A stretch of 64,000 bases of DNA from Cytobacillus oceanisediminis 2691. Its GTDB lineage: Bacteria > Bacillota > Bacilli > Bacillales > Cytobacillaceae. The notes beneath the pieces are model-generated. The model was not told the origin of the DNA and searched no databases. It was given only the letters and a program-made list of their open reading frames with translations. Positions 34,790 through 62,130 of the stretch are shown here, one piece after another. A program made the translations under genes and the position numbers. Numbering within the stretch: position 1 is the stretch's first letter; each line of letters starts with the position of its first letter. The DNA lies in the NCBI RefSeq assembly GCF_007678455.1, contig NZ_VEEP01000004.1, positions 124,001-188,000 of the forward strand, written 5' to 3'.

Positions 34790-35008
34790 TGCGGATGACA
34801 ACAAGGGGAGAGACTACTCCGGTAGCGCCGAAGGAGCAAGCAAAATTGTGAATCTCTCAGGCAAAAGAACTCTTGTTTGACGCATCTCTGGAGAGCGCTT
34901 CCATATGTGTAAGCCACCAAAGGGGAAAGCCTTTACAAGGTAAACTTTCAGGTGAAAGGACAGAGACCTTCTCAGATTAAGAGGGGGTGCTCTGTCCTTT
35001 TCTGCTTT
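34790..35008 (+). promoter_or_regulatory. Tandem glycine riboswitch with terminator platform
   Basis: Two gcvT-type aptamers in series. Aptamer 1 covers about 34800-34875 (GGGGAGAGACTACTCC, GCGCCGAAGGAGCAAG, TCTCAGGCAAAAGAAC). Aptamer 2 covers about 34880-34965 (ATCTCTGGAGAGCG, CACCAAAGGGGAAAGCC, TTTCAGGTGAAAGGACAG). AGGACAGAG then pairs with CTCTGTCCT (about 34958-34998) before TTTTCTGC, an intrinsic terminator as expression platform. Glycine binding should favour readthrough into gcvT. Confidence 0.93.
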
Positions 35009-36216: not shown

Positions 36217-37563
36217 ATGAAGCATCGCTATTTACCGCTGACGGAAAGTGACAAAAACGCAATGTTGGAAAGCATCGGCGTATCATCGATCGATGAACTG
36301 TTCAGCGATATTCCTGAAAAGGTCCGTTTTGCCGGAGAATACAATATTAAAAAAGCTAAGCCGGAAACAGCTCTTATGAAGGAGCTTGCCCAGATGGCTT
36401 CCAAAAATGCTGATTTAAAAATGAATACTTCATTCATTGGTGCAGGCGTATATGATCATTATATTCCGGTCATTGTCGACCATGTTCTGTCACGTTCGGA
36501 ATTTTACACTGCCTACACTCCATATCAGCCGGAAATCTCACAGGGGGAACTTCAGGCTATCTTTGAATTCCAGACGATGATCTCCGAATTGACTGGCATG
36601 GAGGTAGCGAACTCTTCCATGTATGATGGCGGTACTGCACTGGCAGAAGCAGCTATGCTTAGTGCGGGCCATACCAGAAGGAAGAAGGTATTGATCTCAA
36701 GTGCTGTCCATCCGGAATATAAGGATGTCGTCAAAACTTATGCAAAAGGACAATACATTGATGTAGTCGAAGTGCCTCATAAAGATGGTGTAACAGACCT
36801 GGATGCATTGAAGGATATGGCAAGCGAAGATGTCGCTGCTGTCATCGTCCAGTATCCGAACTTCTTTGGCGGTCTTGAGTCAATGAAGGAAATTGAAGAA
36901 ATTGTCCATGAGAACAAATCTCTTTTCGTAGTTTCGAGCAATCCGCTAGCGCTGGGGGCGTTGACACCTCCAGGCAAATTCGGCGCTGACATTGTGACGG
37001 GAGACGCACAGCCATTCGGGATCCCGACAGCATTCGGCGGCCCTCACTGTGGATACTTTGCAGTAACTGGAAAGCTGATGAGGAAGGTTCCAGGAAGACT
37101 TGTCGGCCAGACTAAGGACGATCAGGGACGCCGAGGATTTGTATTGACACTTCAGGCGAGGGAACAGCATATCCGCCGTGATAAAGCGACATCCAATATC
37201 TGCTCGAACCAGGCATTAAATGCACTTGCTGCCTCTGTGGCGATGACTGCAATCGGTAAAAAAGGCGTTCGTGAAATGGCTGTCGCCAATATCCAGAAAG
37301 CTCATTACGCTAAAAAGGCATTCAAGGAAAATGGCTTTGAGATTGCATTTGAAGGCCCATCCTTCAATGAATTCGTTGTCAAGCTGAATAAGCCGGTCAA
37401 AGAAGTGAACCAGAAGCTCCTCGAAAAGGCCATCATAGGCGGCTATGACCTTGGCCGTGATTATTCCGGACTTGAGAATCACATGCTTGTTGCAGTGACT
37501 GAGTTAAGGACAAAAGAAGAAATCGATACATTTGTAAAGGAAATGGGGGATATCAATGCATAA
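36217..37563 (+). CDS. gcvPA: Glycine dehydrogenase (decarboxylating) subunit 1
   Basis: N-terminal half of the split P-protein. It pairs with GcvPB to decarboxylate glycine and load the aminomethyl group onto GcvH. 448 residues with the fold type I PLP-enzyme pattern but no PLP lysine, as expected. Typical stretches are [13 protein letters not shown] near 72 and [17 protein letters not shown] near 97. Preceded by GGAGAGGGG and overlapping gcvPB by 8 nt. Confidence 0.95.
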
Positions 37564-39019
37564 GGAAGATCAGCCACTCATTTTTGAATTAAGCACACCA
37601 GGCCGTGTCGGCTACAGCCTTCCGGAAATGGATGTTCCAGAAGCGGATTTATCAGAGCTTTTGCCTGAAGGATTCCTTCGTGAAGAGGAACCAGAACTTC
37701 CTGAGGCTTCCGAGCTTGATATCATGCGCCATTATACAGCATTGTCGAAACGCAACCACGGTGTTGATTCCGGATTCTATCCGCTTGGATCATGTACAAT
37801 GAAATACAATCCGAAGATGAATGAAAATGTCGCTCGTTTCAACGGATTTGCACACTTGCATCCATTGCAGGATGAGAGTTCAGTGCAGGGGGCGCTTGAA
37901 TTGATGTACGATCTGCAGGAACACTTGATTGAAATCACCGGTATGGATGAAGTTACCCTGCAGCCAGCAGCTGGTGCACACGGTGAGTGGACGGGATTGA
38001 TGATGATCCGCGCTTTCCATGAAGCCAATGGTGACCAAAACCGTACGAAGGTCATCGTTCCTGATTCCGCTCACGGAACCAATCCTGCTTCTGCTACAGT
38101 CGCTGGTTTTGAAACGATTACGGTAAAATCTGATGAAAACGGCCTTGTTGACCTTGAAGACCTTAAAAAGGTTGTTGGGGAAGATACTGCTGCGTTGATG
38201 CTTACAAACCCGAACACGTTGGGATTATTTGAAGAAAATATCCTAGAGATGGCCGAGATAGTCCACGGCGCAGGCGGAAAGCTTTATTACGATGGAGCGA
38301 ACCTGAACGCTGTAATGTCCAAGGCTCGCCCTGGCGACATGGGCTTTGATGTTGTTCACTTGAACCTTCACAAGACATTCACAGGCCCACACGGCGGCGG
38401 CGGCCCGGGATCAGGCCCAGTCGGCGTAAAAGCAGACCTTATTCCATTCCTGCCAAAGCCTATCGTTACAAAGCAGGATGGCGTATACAAATTCGATTAC
38501 GACCGCCCGCAATCAATCGGAAGGGTTAAACCTTTCTACGGAAACTTCGGCATCAATGTCCGTGCCTATACGTATATTCGGACAATGGGACCAGACGGCT
38601 TGAAGGCTGTAACAGAGTACGCGGTACTAAATGCCAACTATATGATGAGAAGGCTTGCTGAATATTATGATCTGCCATTCAACAGGCACTGCAAACACGA
38701 ATTCGTCCTTAGCGGCAAGCGCCAGAAAAAGCTTGGCGTCCGTACATTGGATATTGCCAAACGCCTGCTTGACTTCGGTTATCATCCGCCAACCATCTAC
38801 TTCCCATTGAATGTAGAAGAAGCGATCATGATCGAGCCGACAGAAACAGAATCCAAGGAAACCCTTGATGCGTTCATCGACGCGATGATCCAGATCGCAC
38901 GTGAAGCAGAGGAGAACCCGGAAATCGTTCAGGAAGCACCTCACTCTACTGTTGTAGGCCGCCTGGATGAAACAACAGCTGCAAGGAAGCCAATCCTGCG
39001 CTATCAAAAAGCTGAATAG
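37556..39019 (+). CDS. gcvPB: Glycine dehydrogenase (decarboxylating) subunit 2
   Basis: PLP-bearing half of the split P-protein. 487 residues. Lys273 in [18 protein letters not shown] is the predicted Schiff-base lysine, followed by the Gly-rich loop. [17 protein letters not shown] near 137 and [11 protein letters not shown] near 169 are family motifs. The start overlaps gcvPA by 8 nt, consistent with 1:1 synthesis. Confidence 0.95.
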
Positions 39020-39025
39020 TTTTTT

Positions 39026-39063
39026 AAAAGTCCTGCCGGTTTGAAATTGGCAGGACTTTTTTT
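39026..39063 (+). terminator. Terminator of the gcv operon
   Basis: AAGTCCTGCC / GGCAGGACTT stem, then seven T. Confidence 0.9.
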
Positions 39064-39099
39064 GATAATGATTATTTTTGGTAGCTGAGCCCGGTAGAC

Positions 39100-39452
39100 T
39101 TCGGACAGATTTGGAGGGAATCAGCGAAAAGCTGTCTGAACAAGGTGCAACTTCGGACAGGTTTGGAGGAAATCATTGAAAAGCTGTCCGAACTAGGTCC
39201 AACTTCGGACAGGTTAGAAGGGAATCAGAGGAAAGCTGTCCGAACTAGGAGCAACTTCGGACAGGTTTGAAGGAAATAAGCAAAAAGCTGTCCGAACTAG
39301 GAGCAACTTCGGACAGGTTTGAAAGGAATCATCAGAAAGCTGTCCGAACTAGGTGCAACTTCGGACAGGTTTGGAGGAAATCAGTAGAAAGCTGTCCGAA
39401 CCAGGAGCAACTTCGGACAGGTTTGGAGGAAATAAGCAAAAAGCTGTCCGAA
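39100..39452. repeat. Array A: seven 52-bp units with inverted arms
   Basis: TTCGGACAG starts at 39100, 39152, 39204, 39256, 39308, 39360 and 39412, exactly 52 bp apart. Each is followed 32 bp later by its complement CTGTCCGAA (first copy CTGTCTGAA). The 23-nt loops are similar (G-TTTGGAGGAAAT type, ending AAAG) and the 11-nt gaps read CTAGGAGCAAC or close variants. The array lies between the gcv terminator and the convergent yqhL gene. Fifty-two is not a multiple of three, so it is not coding. A related array lies at 61759-62130. Function unknown. Confidence 0.95.
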
Positions 39453-39527
39453 CCTAAGATGCAAAAGACATTTATTTTAGAACTAAAAGAAGCTAAACCG
39501 AAAAGAGTGTTATGACTTTAAAAGCTA

Positions 39528-39553
39528 ACCCCCCAGCATTTCTGCTGAGGGGT
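39528..39553 (-). terminator. Terminator of yqhL
   Basis: ACCCC.CAGC / GCTGAGGGGT hairpin just past the minus-strand stop; downstream minus-strand sequence is moderately T-rich. Confidence 0.7.
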
Positions 39554-39572
39554 GATTTTATGGAAAGATTGC

Positions 39573-39953
39573 TTATTTAGCTTTGATTTTGCCGCCCCAT
39601 TTTTTGAAGCCGCCTTCAAGATGGGATAAGTCTTTATAGCCTTTTTTGTGAAGCAGCTGTGCAGCACGGCCGCTGCGTGATCCGCTCTGGCAATAAAGAT
39701 AGACTGGCTTGTCCGGTCTGACTTCCTTCAGACGTGCCTTTAGCTGGGTTAGCGGGATGTTTCTTGCGCCTAGAATATGTCCGTTGGCAAATTCATTTGG
39801 TTCACGGACATCAATGAGCTGCGCTTTACGGTACCCTGCTTTGAATTCTTCCTCTGACAAAGTCTTCAGGATTTTCTTTTGGCGGAAATACATAAACACA
39901 GAGTAAAGAATCACCGCAACTGTCAGGACGATTAAAAAAATAAGTGTATCCAA
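39573..39953 (-). CDS. yqhL: Membrane-anchored rhodanese-like protein YqhL
   Basis: 126 residues. An N-terminal helix (about 3-23) anchors a cytoplasmic single rhodanese domain. The active-site loop is CQSGSR with Cys88; DVREPNEFANGHI near 48 is the CH2A motif. Likely a sulfur-carrying or sulfurtransferase protein. The TTG start is set by AAGGAG 9 nt upstream; an overlapping ATG is out of frame. Position between gcvPB and lipM matches B. subtilis. Confidence 0.9.
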   Translation of the reverse strand: MDTLIFLIVLTVAVILYSVFMYFRQKKILKTLSEEEFKAGYRKAQLIDVREPNEFANGHILGARNIPLTQLKARLKEVRPDKPVYLYCQSGSRSGRAAQLLHKKGYKDLSHLEGGFKKWGGKIKAK

Positions 39954-61724: not shown

Positions 61725-61758
61725 TAGATTTGGTAGGTTAGGGCGAATTTTTTTAAAG

Positions 61759-62130
61759 CTGTACGAAGTAGGTCCAAGTTCGGACAGGATTGCGTATTTT
61801 CCGGTAAAAGCAGTCCGAAGCAGGCCGAAGTTCGGACAGGATATCGGTTTTAGCAGTGAAAGCTGTCCGAAGTAAGCCCGTATTCGGACAGGATTCCGGG
61901 TTTTCTAGTAAAAGCTGTCCGAAGTCGGTCCAAGTTCGGACAGGATCCCGGGTTTCCCAGTAAAAGCTGTCCGAAGTAGACCCGTGTTCGGACAGGATTC
62001 CGGGTTTTCTAGTAAAGCTGTCCGAAGTAGACCCGTGTTCGGACAGGATTTCAGTTTTTCTAGGAAAAGCTGTCCGAAGTGGACCGGAGTTCAGACACCA
62101 TACCGGTTTCATCAGGAAAAGCTGTCCGAA
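61759..62130. repeat. Array B: 52-bp repeats sharing the arms of array A
   Basis: TTCGGACAG starts at 61779, 61831, 61883, 61935, 61987 and 62038, plus a decayed copy at 62090. CTGTCCGAA follows 31-32 bp later at 61863, 61915, 61967, 62018, 62070 and 62122; two early right arms at 61759 and 61811 are decayed. The period is 52 (once 51). Loops are of the GATTCCGGGTTTTC..AAAAG type, unlike array A, while arms and geometry are identical. It lies between the accBC-yqhY terminator and nusB. Non-coding; function unknown. Confidence 0.95.

Follow-up and report, generated by a model that had tools for sequence, protein, structure and literature searches.

Seven 52-bp palindromic units between gcvPB and a rhodanese gene of Cytobacillus oceanisediminis: a member of the 52 nt tandem repeat class and a possible helically phased docking array

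The convergent gap between gcvPB and a rhodanese-domain gene of Cytobacillus oceanisediminis 2691 holds a 52-bp palindromic tandem array that is a member of the published class of 52 nt tandem repeats of Bacillus, described without an assigned function (Subirana & Messeguer, 2021; PMC8161180). An earlier note on this DNA had known of no named element of such form. New here are the recurrence of an arm core in the family, a TGTC-N19-GACA frame, a 10.4-bp phase of A/T content, the absence of unit-level compensation and of strand bias, and change by whole units. The idea put first here is protein binding in phase with the helix: the array would be a helically phased DNA docking or bending array for a putative dyad-reading protein, a tentative reading to which we assign a probability of roughly 45%, and within which we infer protein docking, bending, and a nucleoid or supercoil role.

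The published class has a constant length of 52 nt and variable sequence, occurs in ∼30% of the Bacillus species studied, and has been proposed to involve nucleoid proteins or small RNAs; two of its families, 79_52_5 (oceanisediminis) and 71_52_7 (alkalitelluris), have arms of the TTCGGAC type, and its Table 4 includes B. subtilis 168 as a genome lacking such repeats (PMC8161180). The array described here has the constant unit of 51–53 bp in at least four copies (period 52, 6.8 copies), is intergenic and non-coding with a period that is no multiple of three, and stands among many arrays of several sequence families both in its own genome and in a conspecific chromosome.

Geometry, setting and recurrence of the array

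Within the window, the whole stretch of 64,000 nucleotides analysed, TRF places the array at 39098–39453 (period 52, 6.8 copies, 87% match, 0% indel). Seven copies of TTCGGACAG begin at 39100, 39152, 39204, 39256, 39308, 39360, and 39412, each step being exactly 52 bp without indels, as had been claimed. The further claim that each copy faces CTGTCCGAA 32 bp downstream holds exactly for six of the seven units (39184, 39236, 39288, 39340, 39392, and 39444) but not for the first unit on the gcvPB side, which has CTGTCTGAA instead. The two arms alternate at 32 and 20 bp through the seven units, and the positions confirm a 23-nt loop and an 11-nt gap, with no indel between 39100 and 39412; TTCGGACAG-N23-CTGTCCGAA was absent from 100 base-shuffled windows. 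Six 27-bp quasi-palindromes of the form TGTC-N19-GACA, starting at 39133, 39185, 39237, 39289, 39341, and 39393, span 39133–39419. A second array of the 52-nt class, found by TRF at 61755–62130 and containing one 51-bp step, lies between plus-strand genes that by inspection resemble Asp23 and NusB.

The gap is convergent, as first described: gcvPB, encoding glycine dehydrogenase subunit 2 (plus strand, 37556–39019; NCBIfam NF003346 over cut-off, 817 bits), ends at 39019, and the rhodanese-domain gene occupies 39573–39953 on the minus strand. The latter's name, yqhL, is taken from the earlier note, and its profile matches to rhodanese families are all below cut-offs. Terminator-like hairpins of both genes bracket the array. 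That of gcvPB, with its T run, lies upstream of the array at 39025–39065 (plus strand) and was read by eye; it is not among the sites of the terminator scan, whose loop limit is 8; that of the rhodanese gene, on the other side at 39528–39553 (minus strand), was returned by the scan. The array itself contains no T run, and the scan's sole site in 38900–39700 is outside it, unlike a cluster of intrinsic terminators with its G+C-rich hairpins and following T runs; the view that the array is not a terminator set is thereby upheld. The gcvPB hairpin with its T run also contains a pair of promoter-like plus-strand matches that overlap each other and point into the array (39041–39075; 0.6 expected). 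At the Rfam gathering score the array has no match, and the window yields only a tRNA and a glycine riboswitch, whose aptamer lies at 34795–34882 upstream of gcvT-gcvPA-gcvPB (RF00504, 68.6 bits).

The array is neither confined to this assembly nor set in decayed genes, the flanking proteins examined looking like ordinary chromosomal genes. Its own genome contains 48 exact places of TTCGGACAG-N23-CTGTCCGAA, each of which reads on both strands because the pattern is palindromic, and 50 exact places in the other register, with none for the reversed control in either case. Arrays occur at no fewer than three further places in this genome; the window and 13 own-genome stretches give 15 arm chains, 14 of them with at least three units, in which the spacing is 32 bp in 121/123 pairs and 20 bp in 122/125. 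A search of relatives, proposed at the outset, gave at 116 loci among the matches listed 415/449 pairs at 32 bp and 426/437 at 20 bp, in a scan that did not itself demand these spacings; in both sets arms with at most one mismatch within 70 bp were counted. The scan of genome contigs returned at least 116 stretches, 103 of 116 having an arm-pair array by the chain rule and 13 having none. Named genera with arrays among the matches listed include Neobacillus, Mesobacillus, Cytobacillus, Robertmurraya, Peribacillus, Aquibacillus, Evansella, Texcoconibacillus, Pullulanibacillus, and Ammoniphilus. Of 193 family genomes, 86 (in 14 of 25 genera) have the core pattern GTCCGAA-N11-TTCGGAC-N27-GTCCGAA and none has its reversed control; counts of the pattern range from 0 to >300 (both strands) within a single genus. 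Loops are similar in arrays at several loci of a single genome. Arrays of Bacillaceae type at four loci (L079, L105, L110, L118) are on contigs titled Chryseobacterium sp. ISL-80; as the sibling ISL records bear the title Bacillus, mislabelling or contamination is probable. At L108, L066, L110, and L130, TTCGGACAG arrays adjoin or merge with 52-bp units having other GACAG/CTGTC arms, and at L130 the 52-bp step is unbroken across the change from TTCGGACAG to the GACAG/CTGTC-type unit.

The preference for particular gene gaps is modest. Among arrays with both neighbours, based on ORF gene calls and leaving 26 further arrays at locus edges aside, 22/86 are in convergent gaps compared with 89/537 other gaps, and 12/86 in divergent gaps compared with 131/537; array-masked gene calls (n = 93) give 28 convergent, 53 tandem, and 12 divergent contexts. 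In tandem contexts the median distance is 150 to the upstream 3′ end and 245 to the downstream 5′ end (p = 0.087).

The rhodanese gene is present in 21/21 genomes of the genus, and 19 loci include both flanks of the gcvPB interval. There TRF finds a 52-bp array in 11, remnants are present in three (by eye, L138 is decayed and L143 and L148 retain about one unit each), and five have none. In three congeners (L150, L151, and L153) the gcvPB-yqhL interval has no array but 763–841 bp of non-repeat DNA, which may encode a small membrane protein. The arms are TTC(G/A)GACAG..CTGTCCGAA in 5/11 arrays and TTC(G/A)GACAAA..TTTGTC(C/T)GAA or a close form in 6/11, so that whole arrays differ between congeners in both arms together. 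This coordinated change could be read as compensation, of which no sign is seen at the level of units. A second, conspecific genome has eight units at this locus instead of seven (+52 bp). The comparison between two conspecific genomes (flanks 93–100% identical) covered 12 of 18 arrays; all 12 are in place and nine have changed length, by −10 to +13 units and within 0–7 bp of multiples of 52.

The TGTC-N19-GACA frame and the phasing of A/T content

An unbiased sample of 400 kb (20 × 20 kb) from the conspecific chromosome contains 16 arrays of period 51–53 with many different arms, which extrapolates to ∼190 arrays per chromosome, about one per 25 kb. Genome G019, which lacks TTCGGAC arrays, has four arrays in 140 kb and G107 has two in 60 kb; there are none of this period in 60 kb each of G021 and G166 or in 20 kb of G011. 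At p < 0.05, 12/22 sampled consensus units and 15/24 published ones are more palindromic than shuffles, and 10/22 and 9/24 are not; the best palindrome most often spans 27 or 25 bp (8/22 sampled, 12/24 published). The frame TGTC-N19-GACA is present in 9/22 sampled arrays and 5/24 published families, compared with 0.0009 and none in shuffles. In the 400 kb, instances of TGTC-Nk-GACA (k from 0 to 44) with a second copy 52 bp further on number 46 for k = 19, one for k = 37, and zero for every other k, and for k = 19 over periods of 30–79 the counts are 46 at 52, two at 53, and zero elsewhere. Isolated units are at background level (eight at k = 19 compared with 2–10 at other spacings from 10 to 30).

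The TGTC pattern is found in 136/193 family genomes and 17/25 genera, at 0–615 matches per genome, leaving 57/193 without it, among them G011 of the present strain's genus and the whole of genus g20 (13 genomes); the reversed control gives one match in each of two of the 193. Among 398 genomes drawn over the class, nine have the pattern, three of them from the same genus as the present strain, and controls have none. The inner arms vary between arrays and genomes. In 35 TGTC arrays with 229 units, which are not independent by descent, inner positions 5–10 covary between arrays while staying complementary (z = 2.6–7.4) and positions 11–13 do not; at unit level, where cells are few, there is no clear signal in this set. 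The G006 chromosome also carries, at L161 and L167, a sister family of 53-bp period whose arms are GGGTACC...ATACCC; L161 has a 27-bp palindrome too.

Within each 52-bp unit the A/T content peaks five times. Of 26 harmonics, that of 10.4 bp ranks first in 127 TTCGGAC arrays and second in 28 arrays with other arms, with a phase coherence of 0.96 in both sets, to which the fixed arms contribute. For the linker only, the TTCGGAC arrays give a coherence of 0.73 (null maximum 0.20) and the others one of 0.67 (0.44); in the inner linker (positions 31–49) R is 0.81 (null maximum 0.22) in the TTCGGAC arrays and 0.32 (0.47), not significant, in the others. Periods of 8.7, 9.5, and 10.4 fit the TTCGGAC linker about equally (R = 0.82, 0.80, and 0.73). 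In the 22 sampled arrays the mean share of the 10.4-bp harmonic is 0.122 (11 rank first), the largest of the first 13 harmonics, the next being 0.048. The share is 0.121 in the 12 sampled arrays without a TGTC-type consensus, a set that includes L171, a TTCGGAC array whose consensus has no exact TGTC. The 24 published families have a share of 0.109, eight ranking first (1000 permutations: mean 0.039, maximum 0.066), and the 17 of them without TGTC..GAC have 0.099 (permutation maximum 0.074). Controls are lower, at 0.039 for 3000 random 52-mers (5.1% rank first) and 0.052 for array flanks, and the eight consensus units of 21-bp arrays in the sample give no clear helical signal. The suggestion that 52 bp approximates five helical turns is thus borne out on the class average, the gcvPB-rhodanese array itself being weak (share 0.08, rank 4) and the second array in the window stronger (0.21, rank 1).

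Constraint on the arms and competing explanations

Across 129 arrays and 957 units, ten of the 14 arm-core positions have substitution rates of 0.7–1.5%; positions 3 and 39 reach 4.1 and 6.7%, and positions 4 and 38 reach 16.5 and 18.3%. These rates are lower bounds, because a unit was left uncounted if an arm had over two changes in its core. The variable positions are mirrored between both arms (3/39 and 4/38), as base readout would give. They are CpG positions (3–4 and 38–39), and the changes are mostly transitions (116 G>A at 4, 136 C>T at 38), with transversions raised too, at 37 each. Within 108 arrays the per-position difference is 1–3% in the arms (6–12% at 3, 4, 38, and 39), compared with 13–25% at loop positions 9–33 and 19–32% at gap positions 43–51.

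The earlier proposal of two alternative hairpin registers, taken as a function, is not supported by the pairing data. In neither register is there unit-level compensation at the polymorphic pairs of positions 1–9 (z = −1.6 to 1.8 compared with shuffled units); for example, pair 4/38 is observed 94 times with 96.0 expected and pair 9/33 104 times with 101.7 expected. Outer pairs within units are negative (10/32, z = −3.1; 13/29, z = −2.9), and in tandem contexts there is no bias of G.T over A.C (98 vs 109). At L229 (G034:C6) and L243 (G569:C1), adjacent units have different arms that are internally well paired, as isolated double changes at unit level. Across 111 arrays, pairs 4/38 (z = 3.1), 0/42 (z = 3.8), and 11/31 (z = 3.7) are complementary more often than in shuffles, and therefore an array-level pairing constraint on the arms may exist; 8/34 (z = −2.6) and 9/33 (z = −3.0) are complementary less often. 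On these data the arms seem to be read rather than paired.

Terminators separate gene and array in part of the cases: one follows the stop codon and precedes the array in 36/96 3′ segments compared with 3/53 5′ segments (0–2/96 in ten shuffles), and the finder used detects none in 60/96 3′ segments. Taken together, the phased A/T content, the fixed dyads, the base-specific arms without unit-level compensation, and the terminators favor protein recognition of double-stranded DNA rather than an RNA role. In the docking reading, the gcvPB-rhodanese array would belong to a satellite-like element with many arrays spread over the chromosome. The unit of this element may be described as a 27-bp dyad site (outer TGTC/GACA, family-specific inner arms, and a free 7-bp center) plus a 25-bp linker; the two together make five helical turns, along which A/T-rich stretches recur in 10.4-bp phase. 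Such an array would most likely act as double-stranded DNA, forming a multivalent platform for docking and bending on which a putative dimeric DNA-binding protein could read each half-site on one helix face; the arrays would lie mostly outside transcription units, and their copy number would drift by whole units through recombination or slippage. Several points weigh against this reading: a single chromosome has many arm families, so no single specificity could read them all; the patchy distribution (0 to 615 matches, 57/193 genomes without) suits an expendable element; complementary turnover of arms between arrays is expected of a hairpin too; and, as given above, part of the consensus units are no more palindromic than shuffles, the 10.4-bp share of this array is modest, and 60/96 3′ segments show no terminator.

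If the arrays were instead transcribed and their hairpins acted as sRNAs, sponges, or 3′ structures of mRNAs, the very stable predicted fold of 298 nt of the array as RNA (z = −6.1 and −4.6), with stable folds predicted for both strands, the complementary turnover just mentioned, and the promoter-like matches immediately upstream would be accounted for, and a later paper by the authors of the class reports RNA-seq matches, i.e., transcription, for B. coagulans arrays (PMC8625621). This role is nevertheless quite improbable, given an array enclosed by two terminator-like hairpins, the missing G.T over A.C strand bias and unit-level compensation, an A/T phasing that is a property of the double helix, and the lack of an Rfam family at gathering score. 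A neutral satellite, in which slippage and unequal exchange multiply any short palindrome and template switching keeps the arms complementary with no reader involved, would fit the whole-unit drift of copy number and the joint change of both arms at the gcvPB locus; it is improbable, because neither the 52-bp length nor the phased A/T would follow from such a process, and because many genera share these arms and their spacing and the arms differ less within arrays than loop and gap do. The 27-bp site, with two 10-bp arms and a 7-bp would-be crossover region, also has the anatomy of a tandem core site for a site-specific recombinase exchanging whole 52-bp units, as the whole-unit copy change might suggest. 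Such an exchange would need identity at the crossover center, whereas no other part of the unit varies as much within arrays as this center (43–51; pairwise difference 0.19–0.32), unlike a tyrosine recombinase core site, and we regard this explanation as very improbable.

The main and serious rival to the docking reading is a selfish, BIME-like satellite, in which a putative trans-acting recombinase, nuclease, or transposase would read the half-sites and drive dispersal and amplification, arm-less arrays being lost and the host gaining no role from it. Fast copy change and patchiness keep this rival serious: abundance is patchy among close relatives, whole units have been gained or lost in nine of the 12 orthologous arrays of conspecific genomes, and several loci of one genome may have arrays with similar loops. 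G004 and G015, genomes with few TTCGGAC matches, have decayed or single-unit remnants at the gcvPB locus (L138 and L148), which also fits this rival, although the G002 remnant (L143) occurs where TTCGGAC matches are many. Against it, PF01797 (IS200/RAYT) is absent from the array-rich genomes G016 and G020, no cluster among 866 flanking proteins exceeds four cases of adjacency to an array, isolated units are no commoner than at other spacings, and selfishness alone does not explain the 10.4-bp phasing; on balance we hold it to be unlikely, though it deserves to be taken seriously.

Several candidate partners and routes of spread were tried and rejected. An RAYT/IS200 partner fails in that PF01797 is missing in three of 21 genomes (G016, G019, and G020), of which G016 and G020 are array-rich. 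Loss of SbcD as a source of palindrome tolerance is contradicted by SbcD matches in 193/193 genomes (188 over cut-off), and an HU paralogue by single-copy HU in 21/21 genomes of the genus, including G011, which has no TGTC arrays. For a cis-encoded partner, the largest cluster of flanking proteins covers 12 loci, four of them adjacent (ABC-type by letters), and the second covers five, four of them adjacent (aminotransferase-like by letters). The TTCGGAC pattern was found in no viral contig, which speaks against spread by phage, and the gcvPB-rhodanese array has no plasmid match, which speaks against spread by plasmids. Dispersed single sites resembling uptake sequences were dismissed given the background level of isolated TGTC-N19-GACA, as was a single protein with the half-site TTCRGAC for all arrays, given the many arm families of the unbiased sample.

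Comparison with known systems

The 52-nt repeats have been a puzzle of fixed length, apparently unrelated sequences, and no function. A common frame in part of the families, together with the average 10.4-bp phase, offers a concrete answer to the question of why 52, namely five helical turns, and the patchiness over 193 relatives provides a natural experiment for finding the factor. A more speculative and, in our estimation, doubtful extension is that the arrays are what satellite chromatin would correspond to in bacteria, with a five-turn, A/T-phased wrapping unit and putative fast-evolving dyad-reading proteins for which the TGTC contact would be constant while inner-arm specificity turned over between arrays and species.

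The arrays resemble REP/BIME elements, as described in PMC2817692 and PMC3733652, in being many extragenic palindromes, regularly spaced and alternating in orientation, with length polymorphism between strains and a patchy distribution. Unlike those elements as described there, they have no universal GTAG/CGTC tag, the outer motif being TGTC/GACA instead (GTAG follows the arm in some arrays but not in the gcvPB-rhodanese array), they need no RAYT-type transposase in the genome, PF01797 being absent from two array-rich genomes as noted above, and they have a fixed period, with solitary units not above background in the sample. They share direct repeats and constant spacing with CRISPR arrays, but their intervening segments are similar copies rather than unique spacers. 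With the 52 nt tandem repeats the agreement extends to a period of 51–53, non-coding location, several families per genome, and short motifs with their reverse in each repeat. Neither the TGTC-N19-GACA frame nor a 10.4-bp phase was found stated for these repeats in the literature searched. In contrast to the published account of repeats that are species-specific and without sequence conservation (PMC8161180), a single arm core recurs here across genera, and some of the arm families have the TGTC-N19-GACA frame together with an average 10.4-bp phase of A/T content.
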